Below are positions 2,181-8,621 of a stretch of DNA of 64,000 bases, piece after piece; the first letter of the stretch is position 1; every line of letters begins with the position of its first letter. The notes under the pieces are model-generated. The model saw only the letters and a list, made by a program, of their open reading frames with translations, was not told the DNA's origin and did no database searches. The position numbers were made by a program, and so were the translations under genes. This DNA comes from Vagococcus jeotgali (GTDB taxonomy: Bacteria > Bacillota > Bacilli > Lactobacillales > Vagococcaceae): contig NZ_CP142146.1 in NCBI RefSeq assembly GCF_035918315.1, positions 1,674,001 to 1,738,000 of the forward strand. Reading direction: 5' to 3'.

Positions 2181-4238
2181 TTAAAAATACTGTTTTTTAT
2201 TTGATGAAGCTTTTAAATAATATGTTTCTAAATAAACAGAAAGGGCACTATAAGCCTTTAATCTTAATTTAGCATCTTTTGGAAGTTGGACATATTTTTT
2301 GGAAAAAATTGGATGTTTGACAACACCTTGTAACTCATCCAAGAAATTATTTACATCAGAAATATATGGCTCACACCAATCTAAAAATACCACGTTAGTC
2401 TTATCCTTATGGACAGCCCTAACTTGTTGCCAGCGATATTCTAAAAACTTAAGTTCTGTATGACTTTGTTTGTATGACGTGATTTCCAGTTTCACATCAA
2501 CACTTTCTGCTACATCTGAAGCTTTGAATAACCCTTCAATATCTGCCTCATCTTCTTTTTGATGATTGTATCCTGAGCTAAATAGTTCAGTCTGTTCTAC
2601 TTGCATGACATAAGGGTCTTTTTCATAATACAAATCATCATCATCATAGGCAGGCTCTCTTGTTTCTTCTTCCTGTTGATACATATGAGAAATAAGGTGT
2701 TGGGCATCAAGCATTTCTTTTGCTTCAATCATTCCTGATATCTCTTTTTCTTCTTCTTTTGATTCTGTATCTGTTTTTGACATATTATACTCTAAAATAT
2801 CAATAATAAATGCTTGTAAATCTTTTAATTCTTGATTTAGCTCGTCCATCTCTTGTGTTAAATCATTCATCTCTTCTTGATACAATTGACTATCTTTATT
2901 CAAACGCTTATTGTCTGTCTGCAACTGAGAAAAAGCCATTTTAAACTGGTTTACTTGCATCTGATAATGTTCTTGGCTTACTTGAAGTTTTTCTTCCAGT
3001 AATACAATCTGATTTTTAGCTGCCACTAACTCTTCTTGTTGCTCCACATAATTTTGTGCCTGACTAGAGTACTCCCCGACCATTTCTTTTGACTGGGAAC
3101 GCTCATTTTCTAGCGTTTCTCGTAACGTTGTATAGTCTTTTTGGAGTTGAGCCATCTGCTCTTGTAACACGGCTTGTCTATCTGTTATATCTTTATTTTT
3201 ATTGGTGATTCTCTCATCATGATACTCTTTCATCTGCTCAATATTTTGAGTTAGACGCTCATTCGTTTGAGATAGCTGTTCAATAGTCACCTCGTACTCA
3301 TTAACTTGTTGGGTCAAATCTAAATTCTCCTGTTGATTAATAGCTAGAGCTTGTTCTAGCTCTTTTACCTTTTTATGATTATCAGGATGGCTTTGAAATT
3401 CTTTTAATCGATCACTAAGTTGACGATTTGCCCGGTCTAGTTGCTGATTTAACAAGTCTCTATATTCTAATCTCTTCTTAAAATATCGTGCTTGTTTTCG
3501 ACGTTTATTTTTCTCACTTTCTACCTTTGTTTCAAAATGAGTAATAATTTTTTGAGCTTCTTTTACACTTTCTTTATACTCATCAAGCTCAACGCTATCT
3601 TTAGTCATTTGTTTTAGTCGCTCATAAAGTTCACTGTTTTCATTTTCTAAAGCAAAAAGCTGATCACTAATTTTAATATGTTCAGTGGAATTATTCTCAG
3701 TAGACCTCTCTAACATAACGTTTTGTTTTAATACTCGGTTTTCTAGCTCAATAATAGTATCTTGTTGCTCTTTTACTTGTTGACGTAATAACTCCATCAT
3801 ATGTTGGTCATCATTAGAAACTACTTGCTCTTCTACCTCTGTCAGTACTTTAGCTTGAGTAGGTACATTCTGATTAATACCAAGAGTACTCTCCCCAACC
3901 ATATATTTAATGGTATCAAACAACATCTCCATCTCCATACTCGTTAATAACTCTTTTATTGAAAAAGTCACACATAAAACTGGATAATCTTTATCTGATA
4001 ATGTATCAAAAGCTAAAATAATCTGGTAATCAGGTAAGTAGTGATTCCAATTACTTAAAAATAATTGATTATACCGATAGAAATTCTCCTTTGATTCCTT
4101 AGTAAAAGTCAATTCAAGTTGATTTAGTAAGGTGGGTATTTCCTGATTATTTTCTATGTACAACTGACTACTTTTATCTGGTTCGATTCTCTCTTTTTTA
4201 AATAAACGAATGTCTATTAATGTAAATTCATGATCCAC
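2181..4238 (-). CDS. Large coiled-coil protein of unknown function
   Basis: About 685 residues that I do not recognise. The first 130 residues look globular (HEFTLIDIRLFKKERIEPD), residues about 140-500 are an almost unbroken Glu/Gln/Leu-rich heptad coiled coil, residues about 510-590 are acidic and low-complexity, and the last 90 form a second compact region ending near LSVYLETYYLKASSNKKQYF. There is no signal peptide or membrane segment, so it is probably cytoplasmic. The open frame reaches an ATG at 4268, but that codon lies at the foot of a terminator hairpin and the ribosome site AGAAGGAGG lies inside the extension, so GTG at 4238 (or 4247) is the more likely start. Architecture resembles SMC-like or spacer proteins, but no ATPase motif is visible. 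Confidence 0.75.
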   Translation of the reverse strand: MDHEFTLIDIRLFKKERIEPDKSSQLYIENNQEIPTLLNQLELTFTKESKENFYRYNQLFLSNWNHYLPDYQIILAFDTLSDKDYPVLCVTFSIKELLTSMEMEMLFDTIKYMVGESTLGINQNVPTQAKVLTEVEEQVVSNDDQHMMELLRQQVKEQQDTIIELENRVLKQNVMLERSTENNSTEHIKISDQLFALENENSELYERLKQMTKDSVELDEYKESVKEAQKIITHFETKVESEKNKRRKQARYFKKRLEYRDLLNQQLDRANRQLSDRLKEFQSHPDNHKKVKELEQALAINQQENLDLTQQVNEYEVTIEQLSQTNERLTQNIEQMKEYHDERITNKNKDITDRQAVLQEQMAQLQKDYTTLRETLENERSQSKEMVGEYSSQAQNYVEQQEELVAAKNQIVLLEEKLQVSQEHYQMQVNQFKMAFSQLQTDNKRLNKDSQLYQEEMNDLTQEMDELNQELKDLQAFIIDILEYNMSKTDTESKEEEKEISGMIEAKEMLDAQHLISHMYQQEEETREPAYDDDDLYYEKDPYVMQVEQTELFSSGYNHQKEDEADIEGLFKASDVAESVDVKLEITSYKQSHTELKFLEYRWQQVRAVHKDKTNVVFLDWCEPYISDVNNFLDELQGVVKHPIFSKKYVQLPKDAKLRLKAYSALSVYLETYYLKASSNKKQYF

Positions 4239-4268
4239 TTTGATCACTTCCCTCCTTCTTATCACCAT

Positions 4269-4375: not shown

Positions 4376-4762
4376 TTAATTTTGTTGTGAAAAATTCAAT
4401 TGAAGTCCTGGTTTATCTAAAGCAATCTCAGTCATATCATAAGTCAATCTTTCAATTAAAACAAATAAAGGACGCGCTAATTCATTTACCTCATCAGGTG
4501 TTAGATCTTCAATTTTTTCAATTTTACGACCAACAATTTGTACAAATTGAGCCACATCTCCTGAAATTTTAAAAACATCCATAGCAATATTAAACTCTAC
4601 TCTTAGACCTAAGACAGAGTTGTTTTGTGCATCAATGTCCATCTCTTCTGTTATCTCAAAAGGATTTAGACTAACGTTAATTGCTGTTTCTTCTTTATGG
4701 TCTTTTGCCAGTGCATCGTAATGAAAATTCTGTACAAATTCTTTTTGTCTCAATAGTTCCAT
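4376..4762 (-). CDS. DUF1149 family protein
   Basis: 128 residues beginning MELLRQKEFVQNFHYDAL, a pattern I recognise from the DUF1149 family of streptococci, enterococci and lactobacilli, whose members have about this length. The middle (LGLRVEFNIAMDVFKISG) alternates like beta strands and the C-terminal half contains a helix (LTPDEVNELARPLFVLIERLTYDM). No signal peptide, membrane segment or catalytic motif is visible, and the function of the family is unknown. It stands alone between a terminator and a 107-bp gap before pdxK; a good ribosome site (AGGAGAG) precedes the ATG. Confidence 0.8.
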   Translation of the reverse strand: MELLRQKEFVQNFHYDALAKDHKEETAINVSLNPFEITEEMDIDAQNNSVLGLRVEFNIAMDVFKISGDVAQFVQIVGRKIEKIEDLTPDEVNELARPLFVLIERLTYDMTEIALDKPGLQLNFSQQN

Positions 4763-4869: not shown

Positions 4870-5658
4870 CTATTCTTTTGCTTGTTGCCAAACGTTGCCC
4901 AATTCAGGAGTAAAGGTCACTCCGTTTTCAATGGCATTAAAAACAAACGTTTTAGCATCAGCCACTGCCTTTTCTATTGGTAACTGATTGACTAGATTAG
5001 CACAAATGGCAGAAGCAAATGTACATCCTGCCCCGTTGATATAGCCATTGTTAATGATGGGATTGTCATATTGAACAAACATGTGGCCATCATATAAAAT
5101 GTCTCTGGCAATTTGTTTGTCCAGTCGCTCTCCGCCCTTTATAACGACATAAGTCACACCCGTTTCAAAAATAATTTTAGCTGCCTCTTTCATCTCATCA
5201 GTCGTTTTAATAGATGATATGCCACTAAGTAGTTCTGCTTCCCTTAAATTAGGTGTTGTGACAGTCGATTTAGGTAACAACACTTTTTTAAAAAAAGGAA
5301 CAATTTCCTTATTTCCTGTGTATTGACTTTCTTTTAACGCTAAAACAGGATCTAATACTACTGGTCTATCTTGAGTAGACAAATACTCTGATATTAATTC
5401 GGCCGTTTCTAAATTAGCTAGCATACCTACTTTGATACCATCTAGCTTTTGTTTTTTGATAAAGTCTAATTCTTTAATGAGTACCTCTTTTTTTAAATCA
5501 TATACCGTCACACCGTCTACCAGCTGATCAATAGTCACCATACAAGTTAATAATTGTTTTGCTTGTAAACCATACTCATAGAAGGTTCTTAAATCAGCTT
5601 GTAAGCCACCACCACTAAGAGTATCTGATCCTGAAATCGCTAGAATCTTCTTCATCAC
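4870..5658 (-). CDS. pdxK: Pyridoxine/pyridoxal kinase of the ThiD/PdxK family
   Basis: 262 residues of the ribokinase-like fold. The N-terminal ISGSDTLSGGGLQADLRTF is the substrate/Mg region of the ThiD/PdxK group, VIKGG lies in the nucleotide-binding region, and GAGCTFASAI near residue 210 carries the anion hole with the Cys typical of Bacillus-type PdxK (ThiD2) proteins. It would phosphorylate pyridoxal, pyridoxine or pyridoxamine to feed PLP; activity on hydroxymethylpyrimidine cannot be excluded. No other thiamine gene is nearby, which favours PdxK. It is the last gene of the tightly spaced run 9187 to 4870, 13 bp after the signal-peptidase-like gene. Start is ATG-ATG; either may be used. 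Confidence 0.85.
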   Translation of the reverse strand: MMKKILAISGSDTLSGGGLQADLRTFYEYGLQAKQLLTCMVTIDQLVDGVTVYDLKKEVLIKELDFIKKQKLDGIKVGMLANLETAELISEYLSTQDRPVVLDPVLALKESQYTGNKEIVPFFKKVLLPKSTVTTPNLREAELLSGISSIKTTDEMKEAAKIIFETGVTYVVIKGGERLDKQIARDILYDGHMFVQYDNPIINNGYINGAGCTFASAICANLVNQLPIEKAVADAKTFVFNAIENGVTFTPELGNVWQQAKE

Positions 5659-5671
5659 TCTACCACCTAAC

Positions 5672-6493
5672 TTACTTTAGTGCCCCTACTCTTGATGGAG
5701 GCCAAATAATGAGAGTCGCTACGCCTTCAATATCTTTAGCCTTAACTAGACCACTAAAACGGCTATCGACATCGTTTTCTCTGTCATCACTTAAAACCAA
5801 ATAGTAGCCTTCTGGAATGACTTCTATTATCTCACCATCATTAGAGAAGTCTGTCATATTAAATGATTTCGTATAATTTTTTGACATGTTTTTTTTATCT
5901 AACTTAAAATCTAAATAATTACTTTTCAAATAAGGCTCTTCATACACCAAGCCATTAATGTATAATGTATCATTCTCCATCTCTAGAGTGTCCCCAGGAA
6001 TGCCAATGATTCTTGACCAATAACTTTTGCCTTCATCATTCACTTTAACCACACTAAAGCGGTTCATATCTTTTTGATGATATAACACCTTCTCACCTAC
6101 TTGAAGCGTGTGTCCCATCTCTTTAGTTTCTACAGTAGTCAAATCAAATATAAAAGAATAAAACACACCCAAACCAATGATAATTAACAATATTAACCAC
6201 AGACATATTTTTAAAAATTGACTGAATTTATTTTTTTTACGACGTTTTTCTTGTTTATCAGTTATTTTTTGATGGAACTTATTTTTTTCTTCTAACTCAC
6301 TAGAAATTTTTTGCTTGTCCAATTCATGGACTAAATGGCGATTAACTTTTTGCTTTTTAACCTGTTTATTTGGTGATTGTGAGATACTTAACTGATCAGA
6401 TTGTTCACCCTGATTTACCTGTCGCATTTTTCTAGCTTGTGACCGACGTTTTCTGTATTGATTTGATGACGTAGTCTTTTTTTTCTTTTTCAC
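5672..6493 (-). CDS. Signal peptidase I homologue lacking the catalytic Ser and Lys (pseudo-signal peptidase)
   Basis: 273 residues: a Lys/Arg-rich cytoplasmic tail (1-90), one membrane helix (about 91-116), then a type I signal-peptidase fold. Box D is clear (RIIGIPGDTL, 161-170) and box E partly so (SDDRENDVDSR, 235-245). The box B motif, normally SMxPTL, reads EMGHTL (125-130), placing Glu125 where the nucleophile Ser should be; the Lys normally directly before the box D Arg is Ser160. Both catalytic residues are therefore absent and the protein should not cleave signal peptides. Streptococcus pyogenes SipA is a known precedent for a non-catalytic SPase-like protein, there acting in pilus assembly. 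No sortase or pilin gene is visible here. The frame is intact, so this looks like an adapted protein, not decay. Confidence 0.85.
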   Translation of the reverse strand: MKKKKKTTSSNQYRKRRSQARKMRQVNQGEQSDQLSISQSPNKQVKKQKVNRHLVHELDKQKISSELEEKNKFHQKITDKQEKRRKKNKFSQFLKICLWLILLIIIGLGVFYSFIFDLTTVETKEMGHTLQVGEKVLYHQKDMNRFSVVKVNDEGKSYWSRIIGIPGDTLEMENDTLYINGLVYEEPYLKSNYLDFKLDKKNMSKNYTKSFNMTDFSNDGEIIEVIPEGYYLVLSDDRENDVDSRFSGLVKAKDIEGVATLIIWPPSRVGALK

Positions 6494-6499
6494 TCATTA

Positions 6500-7195
6500 T
6501 CACGACTCATTCTTCTCTTCCTTTTCTACTTCTCTGTAATGCTCCATTTTTTTACTAAAGAGTTCTCCATTTGATGGTGGTGTATAAGTAATAGCATTTG
6601 CTCCAGCATCAATCGTCTCTTGAATGGAAGCCTCTGTAGGTCCACCAGTAGCCATAATCGGAAATAATGGATATCGTTTTCTGATTTGTCTGACGATGCT
6701 AGCTGTATTTTTCCCACCACTCACATTTAAAATCTGAACGCCAGCATTAATTTTTTCATCTATATCTGTAAATTCACTCGTGATAGTCCCAATAATCGGA
6801 ATATCCACCATTTGAGAAATATCATAAATTGTCTCTTTAGGTGTCGGGGCATTTACCACTACACCTAAAGAGCCATTTGCCTCAGCAAACATACTCATAT
6901 TTACCGAACGATTTCCTTGAGTTAATCCTCCACCAACACCAGAAAAAACTGGAACATCAGCTGATTCGATAATCGCTTTTGTAATAGTTGGGTGTGGCGT
7001 AAAAGGATACACAGCAATAATCGCATCAGCATCAATGTTTCTAATAATGGCAATATCTGTTGAATAACAAATTGATTTAATTCGCTTACCATATATTTTG
7101 ATTCCTGAACAATCCCGAATCACACTAGGAACATGAATCATGTCTTTTCTAAGATTTGTGACAATTTCTGGAGCAATTCTTTTTTCTCTATTCAT
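6500..7195 (-). CDS. TIM-barrel protein of unknown substrate
   Basis: 231 residues with a beta/alpha-barrel look: repeated strand-loop patterns (ADAIIAVYPFTPHPT, PVFSGVGGGLTQGNR, IPIIGTITSEF, GVQILNVSGG) and a late phosphate-binding-like loop (IMATGGPTEASIQETIDAGANAI) like those of NanE, ThiG, TrpA and other (beta/alpha)8 enzymes. I recognise it only as a conserved lactobacillale protein often labelled 'hydrolase' without evidence. The frame opens at a GTG (7204), but AGGTGG sits five bases before the ATG at 7195, which is chosen here. It lies 6 bp from the signal-peptidase-like gene and 24 bp from the glucosaminidase, so it is probably cotranscribed with them. No signal peptide, hence cytoplasmic. 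Confidence 0.6.
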   Translation of the reverse strand: MNREKRIAPEIVTNLRKDMIHVPSVIRDCSGIKIYGKRIKSICYSTDIAIIRNIDADAIIAVYPFTPHPTITKAIIESADVPVFSGVGGGLTQGNRSVNMSMFAEANGSLGVVVNAPTPKETIYDISQMVDIPIIGTITSEFTDIDEKINAGVQILNVSGGKNTASIVRQIRKRYPLFPIMATGGPTEASIQETIDAGANAITYTPPSNGELFSKKMEHYREVEKEEKNES

Positions 7196-7219
7196 CTTCT
7201 CCACCTATACTATCAAATT

Positions 7220-7849
7220 TTAACTATCATACTGATCTAAATCATATTCTTCAATAATACCAATTAACTTACTAGCATACGTTGGATCTGTTGCATAACC
7301 TGAAACTTGGAGGGCTTTTGCTGCTGTTTTATAATCATCAGCTAGTAAGACTCCTTGATAAATATAAGGATCCCAATCTACTCCATTAACAAATAACTGT
7401 GTGTGATCCCTAATACAATCTTCCCAACTAGCATATACTTTGAAATTAGCTTGAATCGTAATCCACTTACCATCTTTAAATTCCTTTGTTTCTAATTTAA
7501 CCGAATCATCATTAGGTGAGAAGGACTTAATTCCAAATAAATTATTGTAAGTTGCGCCTAACTCACTCGTTCCCCAATCCGACTCTAAAATCGCTTGGGC
7601 TAAAATAATACTAGGTAAGACACCATGACTATGCTCCATCTCTTTAGCAACAGGAACTAATTCATCAATAAAACTAAGTTGATCATGTGTTTTATTAGGT
7701 TCTTTGTATTCAATCACCTTAGTATCACTAAGTCCTGCTAAACTAATGAAAAAAACCACAATAGTTGCCACGAGTAAAAGTCCACCAATAATAAAAACTG
7801 GTGGAAACTTCTTTTTACGTCTATTTTTTTTTATTTGTCGTCTTGTCAT
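7220..7849 (-). CDS. Membrane-anchored GH73 endo-beta-N-acetylglucosaminidase
   Basis: 209 residues: basic tail, one membrane helix (about 17-39), then a glucosaminidase domain of the GH73/FlgJ family. PSIILAQAILESDWGTS (79-95) carries the conserved catalytic Glu89, followed by YNNLFGIKS and later YASWEDCIRDHTQLF, both family hallmarks. It should hydrolyse N-acetylglucosaminyl bonds in peptidoglycan from the outer face of the membrane. There are no LysM or GW repeats; the N-terminal helix is the only anchor. It sits 7 bp after the VanY-type carboxypeptidase gene, which makes a shared role in wall trimming likely. Confidence 0.88.
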   Translation of the reverse strand: MTRRQIKKNRRKKKFPPVFIIGGLLLVATIVVFFISLAGLSDTKVIEYKEPNKTHDQLSFIDELVPVAKEMEHSHGVLPSIILAQAILESDWGTSELGATYNNLFGIKSFSPNDDSVKLETKEFKDGKWITIQANFKVYASWEDCIRDHTQLFVNGVDWDPYIYQGVLLADDYKTAAKALQVSGYATDPTYASKLIGIIEEYDLDQYDS

Positions 7850-7856
7850 AATTTAC

Positions 7857-8621
7857 CTACTTCTTTATTTGTTCTACGTATTCTTCCAACACTAAATCAT
7901 GATCTTTCATATATTCAGCATTTTCTTTACCTACGTAGCGAATATGCCATGGCTCATAATTGATCCCTGTGATTTTTTCCTTACCTTTTTGATAACGAAT
8001 GACAAAACCATAATGGCAAACATTTTCATCTAACCATTTTCCTGCTTTTGTTTCTCCAAATTCCTCTTCCAACATATTGCCATCATTGTACCAATCTTCT
8101 TCCAACACATCCATTGCTAAACCTGTATGATGCTCACTAAGCCCTGGTACTGTTAAATACTCCATCGCTCTTTTTTTTGATTCTTCCTCAGAAAAACCTT
8201 GGTCTAAGTAACTTTGAGTATCACGAGCAACAATACTTTCTTGCTCTGCAACGGAGCGGTAAGCAGATATGATCGTTAAGTCAAATCCCGCTTTTTTAGC
8301 TGCTTTGTTTAATGCTTCATATGAATCAAATATTCTGGAATCAATCTGCATTCCGTTTGGTAGTTCTTTTAAATCAGTTGGTTCTTCTTTTATTTTATGT
8401 TTTTCATTAACAACCAACAACTCCCAATCATCCGCACGTCCTGGATATATTGGTTTTTCACTAGTACTGGTTGTTTCATTATCCCTAGTTTCTGAACTAC
8501 TTATCATAGCACTTGAATCACTGGTTTGATGACTAACTAATTCTGGTTTTTTTTGAACGTAGAACACAATTGAAAAGGCTATAAAACACAAAATCAACCC
8601 AAAAAATAACTTCTTTGCCAT
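7857..8621 (-). CDS. VanY-type D-alanyl-D-alanine carboxypeptidase (M15B)
   Basis: 254 residues with an N-terminal membrane helix or uncleaved signal (4-22), a Ser/Thr-rich linker (30-58) and an M15 zinc peptidase domain. SEHHTGLAMD (162-171) supplies zinc ligands His164 and Asp171, EPWH (223-226) the catalytic Glu223 and third ligand His226, and SAYRS (119-123) the substrate Arg. It should trim the terminal D-Ala from pentapeptide stems outside the cell. The family includes housekeeping DacB-like enzymes as well as resistance VanY; no vanHAX genes are nearby, so this one is taken as housekeeping. Only 5 bp separate it from the upstream gene; the best ribosome site (AGGAGA) lies inside that gene's end. 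Confidence 0.88.
   Translation of the reverse strand: MAKKLFFGLILCFIAFSIVFYVQKKPELVSHQTSDSSAMISSSETRDNETTSTSEKPIYPGRADDWELLVVNEKHKIKEEPTDLKELPNGMQIDSRIFDSYEALNKAAKKAGFDLTIISAYRSVAEQESIVARDTQSYLDQGFSEEESKKRAMEYLTVPGLSEHHTGLAMDVLEEDWYNDGNMLEEEFGETKAGKWLDENVCHYGFVIRYQKGKEKITGINYEPWHIRYVGKENAEYMKDHDLVLEEYVEQIKK

Follow-up and report, generated by a model that had tools for sequence, protein, structure and literature searches.

A signal peptidase homologue in a conserved gene row

The window analysed here is a 64,000-nucleotide stretch of the Vagococcus jeotgali genome (contig NZ_CP142146.1, positions 1,674,001 to 1,738,000). On its minus strand lies a gene for a type I signal peptidase (SPase) homologue that is predicted to be catalytically dead. 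The features of the protein and its neighbouring genes are as follows.

5672..6493, minus strand: predicted catalytically dead SPase homologue, 273 aa; open reading frame with a GTG start, 108 bits to PF10502, one of a clade of seven orthologues
6218..6493, minus strand: N-terminal basic cytoplasmic tail, residues 1-92, with 29 K/R and 9 D/E ahead of the membrane helix
6161..6217, minus strand: single predicted transmembrane segment, residues ~93-111; hydropathy peak 2.74, within a long model helix (52-115)
6119..6121, minus strand: box B residue Glu125 (GAG), where SPases have the catalytic Ser; from alignments and a codon check
6014..6016, minus strand: box D residue Ser160 (TCA), where SPases have the catalytic Lys; from alignments and a codon check
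5771..5773, minus strand: Asp241 (GAT) at the E. coli Ser278 position, box E; from the homologue alignment
5861..5944, minus strand: residues 184-211, in the interval from box D to box E, by pairwise identity newly constrained in the seven orthologues
6500..7204, minus strand: conserved upstream operon gene with weak aldolase-type (TIM-barrel-like) matches, used as a synteny anchor; 6 bp gap to the SPase-like gene
7220..7849, minus strand: operon gene for a membrane-anchored glucosaminidase domain protein (PF01832; synteny)
7857..8621, minus strand: operon gene for a VanY/LdcB-type carboxypeptidase (PF02557; synteny)
4870..5658, minus strand: downstream gene for a phosphomethylpyrimidine/pyridoxal kinase (PF08543, NF009078); 13 bp gap
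4376..4762, minus strand: downstream DUF1149 gene (PF06619; synteny), used as a synteny anchor

The SPase-like frame runs through 273 codons with no internal stop in a tight operon. A preliminary description of this DNA had reported an intact SPase I homologue with a basic cytoplasmic tail of some 90 residues, and both statements held: the frame is open from its GTG start, the protein scores above the cut-offs of two SPase models, and the tail comprises 92 residues. Across the genus, the row reads VanY, glucosaminidase, conserved gene, (SPase-like gene), kinase and DUF1149, and no active SPase gene was found among the row neighbours of the SPase-like gene. The product of 6500-7204 is 76-91% identical across the genus and has no Pfam match, only the weak aldolase-type ones. 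Positions 2181-4268 of the window encode a 695-aa coiled-coil-like protein, also with no Pfam match, and the protein at that place is poorly conserved across the genus (23-39% identity).

Elsewhere in the window's genome (2,016,295 bases, single contig) are genes for two more SPases, whose SxMxPTL and KRVIG motifs are intact. With these present, housekeeping cleavage is independent of the SPase-like gene.

Loss of catalytic residues within a retained fold

The SPase-like protein scored 108 bits against Pfam PF10502 (cut-off 22.9) and 109 bits against TIGR02227 (cut-off 47), and its best alignment to a solved SPase had an E value of 2e-20. Three alignments were made, with solved SPases, with 79 homologues and with a mostly phage-contig set, and in each of them the nucleophile Ser aligned with Glu125 and the general-base Lys with Ser160, as had been claimed from the sequence. 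A different placement of Ser and Lys was looked for as a refutation, and no alignment gave one. Sequencing error was rejected as an explanation, since no Ser codon can be turned into GAG, and no Lys codon into TCA, with fewer than two base changes, and since the orthologues are disarmed too.

A third active-site residue, which the preliminary description had not mentioned, has also been lost. Asp241 occupies the equivalent of E. coli Ser278, a position that holds Ser in all 66 canonical homologues, and within the GDNR motif Gly is replaced by Ser235 and Asn by Asp237. The Lys and the Ser278 equivalent covary: among 80 homologues, both are present in 68 and absent from 11, and one has the Lys only. 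Thirty-five positions are conserved in the 66 canonical SPases, and 24 of these are retained by six or all seven of the orthologues. The conserved positions lost in all seven (G123, P128, K160 and S241) all lie near the catalytic site.

We considered whether the protein might still cleave its substrates through an active site that has moved or is unusual, given that Ser and Lys residues lie near the site (K124 and S160) and that the canonical Ser is kept in five of the seven orthologues. However, neither K124 nor S160 is conserved among the seven, no conserved Ser/Lys pair substitutes for the dyad across them, and every copy has lost Gly123 and Pro128 along with the Lys and the Ser278 equivalent. 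The His found at the Lys position in SipW/ER-type enzymes is absent as well, that position being Ser in the window protein and Leu in the six orthologues. Continued cleavage thus seems extremely improbable, and the alignments support the assignment of the window protein as an SPase I homologue not expected to cleave.

An initial structural model had a mean pLDDT of 57; a second, built from a deeper alignment of 26 sequences, reached a mean pLDDT of 83. Compared by VIA-align with S. aureus SpsB bound to a substrate peptide, the second model gave a Z score of 17.3 (140 residues aligned at 2.3 A and with 35% identity), and compared with Streptococcus pyogenes SipA it gave a Z score of 14.6, although the underlying alignment consisted mostly of canonical SPases and may bias the model towards the SPase fold. 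The preliminary description had proposed a structural comparison with SipS and SipA; here the predicted fold matches that of SpsB, and SipA was matched as well. Like SpsB and the canonical Gram-positive type I SPases (S26, PF10502/TIGR02227), the window protein has a predicted SPase fold, a single N-terminal membrane helix and alignable boxes B to E, but it differs from them in lacking the catalytic Ser, the Lys and the Ser278 equivalent, in its degenerate box B and in its long basic tail.

Orthologues, gene loss and probable origin in Vagococcus

A search for orthologues with alignment of the boxes, which had also been suggested beforehand, found an orthologue at the same place in six of the 13 other Vagococcus genomes. 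Together with the window protein, these form one clade (support 99/94), and the Lys is missing from every member. The Ser278 equivalent is likewise missing from all seven, with Ala, Val or Asp in its place. The nucleophile Ser, in comparison, is kept in five copies and is replaced by Ala in one (G011) and by Glu in the window protein; M126, R145 and the GxPG core are kept in all seven. Consequently, the double loss of Ser and Lys described initially applies to the window species and one other, but the loss that extends across the genus is that of Lys and the Ser278 equivalent. Since the nucleophile Ser persists in five of seven copies, the Lys was probably lost first and once, with Ser lost later and twice, an order that we infer from the tree.

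The gene is absent from seven of the 14 Vagococcus genomes, and its role must therefore be dispensable. In five of these genomes the upstream gene adjoins DUF1149, with the SPase-like gene and the kinase both missing, and in two more the SPase-like gene alone is missing. The gene-less genomes include the five closest to that of the window as judged by the upstream gene (89-91% identity).

Within the same family, two genomes (loci L018 and L028) carry an apparently active SPase in which the Ser, the Lys and the Ser278 equivalent are intact. These proteins resemble the window protein in having a long basic tail, a DUF1149 neighbour, a lengthened interval from box D to box E and a YT...IxG...GT..IP stretch, and they form the sister group of the seven-protein clade with moderate support (89/67, midpoint root). 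They differ from it in their intact active site and in their position after an ABC ATPase and a membrane protein in an EcsAB-like layout, of which Pfam confirmed the ATPase only. From sequence and tree position, these tailed SPases are likely orthologous to the dead lineage. No SPase was found within ~1.5 kb of DUF1149 in 30 Enterococcaceae loci, with family inferred from titles and kinship labels.

Five orthologues (L005, L006, L007, L008 and L009) share an N-terminal tail motif close to MDMNxNPVWxVL, which is absent from the window and G001 proteins. The motif was set aside as a clue to docking: a search of the window's genome, run without a positive control, gave no match, and other matches in the five carriers were insignificant only.

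Selection and a shift of constraint

The pattern of change across the orthologues indicates that selection is still acting on the SPase-like lineage, in the form of low dN/dS, open frames and a move of constraint from box B to residues 184-211. For the closest pair (G006 and G009), dN was 0.17 while synonymous change was saturated (NG86 dS 3.5; 1.0-1.9 for neighbouring genes), and the frames are open in all seven orthologues. The gene is nevertheless the fastest-changing of those compared in the row, at 75% identity in this pair versus 85-97%.

Constraint is distributed differently in this lineage than in SpsB and the canonical SPases, having apparently relocated to residues 184-211. At matched overall identity, box B had a mean pairwise identity of 0.34 in the clade versus 0.60 in canonical pairs, whereas residues 184-211 reached 0.58 in the clade versus 0.29-0.32 in canonical SPases. 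The mean difference between the two regions (184-211 minus box B) was +0.24 in the clade versus -0.29 in 1,717 canonical pairs; the pairs are non-independent, and the comparison is a description and not a formal test. Five residues within the segment are invariant in the seven orthologues (K190, N192, F196, K197 and N202).

These observations bear on the main rival explanation, that the gene is a relaxed relic of a former SPase, drifting without catalysis towards deletion and furthest along in the window species. The rate of change and the loss of the gene from half of the genomes are both expected of such a relic, and the losses in the closest species make it plausible. In addition, Ser, Gly235 and Asn237 are all missing only from the window copy, whose active site has diverged further than those of the other six, and selection on it may be relaxed in this species. 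Drift would, however, be even along the protein, and the window protein is 0.55 identical to its orthologues over residues 184-211, 0.27 over box B and 0.40 over the domain. A conserved segment beside a diverged box B is not a pattern that even drift would leave. An open frame of 273 codons in a tight operon also argues against a relic, as does the low dN/dS between the two closest orthologues, whose synonymous sites are saturated, and overall we judge it unlikely.

The same comparison touches on the suggestion in the preliminary description that the protein may bind exported substrates. Binding in the old cleft gained no specific support: box B is the least conserved part, and it is residues 184-211 that became conserved. 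A related possibility is a regulatory or decoy subunit that competes with the two active SPases for signal peptides, hands such peptides on to them or forms a pair with either enzyme. A predicted fold and membrane topology the same as those of SpsB with its substrate would suit such a subunit, as would the two active SPases in the cell, the Ser kept in five of the seven orthologues and the M126, R145 and GxPG core common to all. Yet box B forms part of the peptide-binding groove and is poorly conserved here, and no active SPase gene adjoins this one, which leaves a regulatory or decoy role decidedly unlikely in our estimation.

Comparison with other non-catalytic SPase homologues

S. pyogenes SipA (PDB 4n31 and 4k8w) has an SPase fold in which the Ser is replaced by Asp48, the Lys by Gly85 and the Ser278 equivalent by Arg145, and it has no peptidase activity (PMC4049620). 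It is required for pilus polymerisation and retains its peptide cleft, and its gene belongs to a pilus operon whose sortase is of class B (PMC4049620). The window protein is like SipA in that the same three residues are replaced on a predicted SPase fold, but its gene is not linked to pilus genes, its cleft loop (box B, a proxy for part of the cleft) is its least conserved part and its sequence match to SipA is far weaker than to an active SPase (E 2e-4 versus 2e-20). The likeness to SipA that had been drawn beforehand is therefore one of analogy only, since the sequence is far nearer to active SPases, the tree places it in another clade than the other Lys-less SPase-like proteins of our panel and its presence does not track tandem sortases.

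A SipA-like factor for assembling pili or another surface polymer could draw on the genome's three tandem sortases and LPXTG protein, and on the structural match to a homologue that lacks Ser and Lys and is needed for pilus polymerisation (PMC4049620). The report that no sortase or pilin is present was correct for the neighbourhood, with none seen in ~2.2-11 kb of the window, but not for the genome, which has five sortase matches. The three in tandem lie beside the LPXTG protein between PolC-like and ProS-like genes (L131:6552-10830; G000:C1, ~1,386.5-1,390.8 kb), ~290 kb from the SPase-like gene, which sits in an unrelated operon. From gene layout the tandem sortases look like putative class C enzymes, as opposed to the class B sortase of SipA pili (PMC4049620). 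Furthermore, orthologues occur in genomes with two sortases only (G001 and G002), while genomes with 8-11 sortases (G004, G007 and G010) lack the gene, and sortase numbers across the 14 Vagococcus genomes do not track its presence. A role in pilus assembly consequently appears very unlikely.

The S. aureus gene spsA adjoins the active spsB; the window gene, by contrast, adjoins no active SPase gene, its active counterparts lying elsewhere in the genome. SpsA is a second SPase homologue without two catalytic residues and is dispensable (PMC12445088), and phagosomal escape is altered in an spsA mutant (PMC5025175). It is like the window protein in missing both catalytic residues, a likeness drawn from its description and not from its sequence. 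In our analysis the window protein is comparable to SipA and SpsA in its lost catalysis, yet we have not filed it as a member of either.

Other Lys-less SPase-like proteins in our panel form a clade separate from that of the window protein, which suggests from sequence that dead SPases may have arisen more than once near surface systems. This second clade (support 100/98), most of whose members lack the Lys, sits in WxL surface-protein clusters and comprises L206:5735-6397, L207:5408-6091, L208:5559-6179 and a tandem pair at L209:5381-6106 and 6119-6826. Among those aligned, the Lys position holds V, R, F and R. The surrounding WxLIP/WxL proteins were recognised by Pfam for L206, L207 and L209 and by gene layout for L208. 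A further SPase homologue, L089:423-923 (G002:C6), keeps Ser and Lys, has Ala at the Ser278 position and groups with the WxL-cluster proteins, its branch being long. WxL proteins were rejected as a partner of the SPase-like gene, since they are present in all 14 Vagococcus genomes and do not track it.

A proposed non-cutting envelope protein

The explanation we favour, with a degree of confidence slightly better than even, is that a catalytically dead SPase persists, encoded in an envelope operon, as a binding or scaffold protein that does not cut and is anchored on the outer side of the cell's membrane. Such a protein would be unusual but not unprecedented. In its favour we counted the loss of the dyad and of the Lys-stabilising Ser, the retention of fold and core, the confinement to one lineage and one gene row, the selection, the shift of constraint and the two intact SPases that make the gene unnecessary for housekeeping; against it we counted that the gene changes fastest among those compared in the row and is absent from half of the Vagococcus genomes.

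In this scenario, the protein probably descends from a tailed SPase beside DUF1149 that still cut, and the Lys would have been lost ahead of the Ser. Conservation points to residues 184-211 as a putative interface, and the present role would be to hold another envelope protein through that surface rather than to handle peptide in the old active site. Candidate partners are the glucosaminidase or carboxypeptidase of the operon, another exported protein or an active SPase. More tentatively, a genus-level pseudo-SPase may have evolved a new interaction surface at 184-211 while its active site was being dismantled, and so have come to serve, without catalysis, as a dedicated partner either of the Sec/SPase exit or of its own cell-wall-hydrolase operon; we hold this stronger form to be possible but rather doubtful.

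Dead SPases are already known in SipA and SpsA. This lineage presents an apparent stepwise series, from a tailed relative that should cut, through Lys-less proteins that keep the Ser, to proteins with neither residue, and the gene has been lost in related species. Such a series lets one ask which part of the protein stays under selection, and from the sequences compared here constraint appears to have left the cleft loop.
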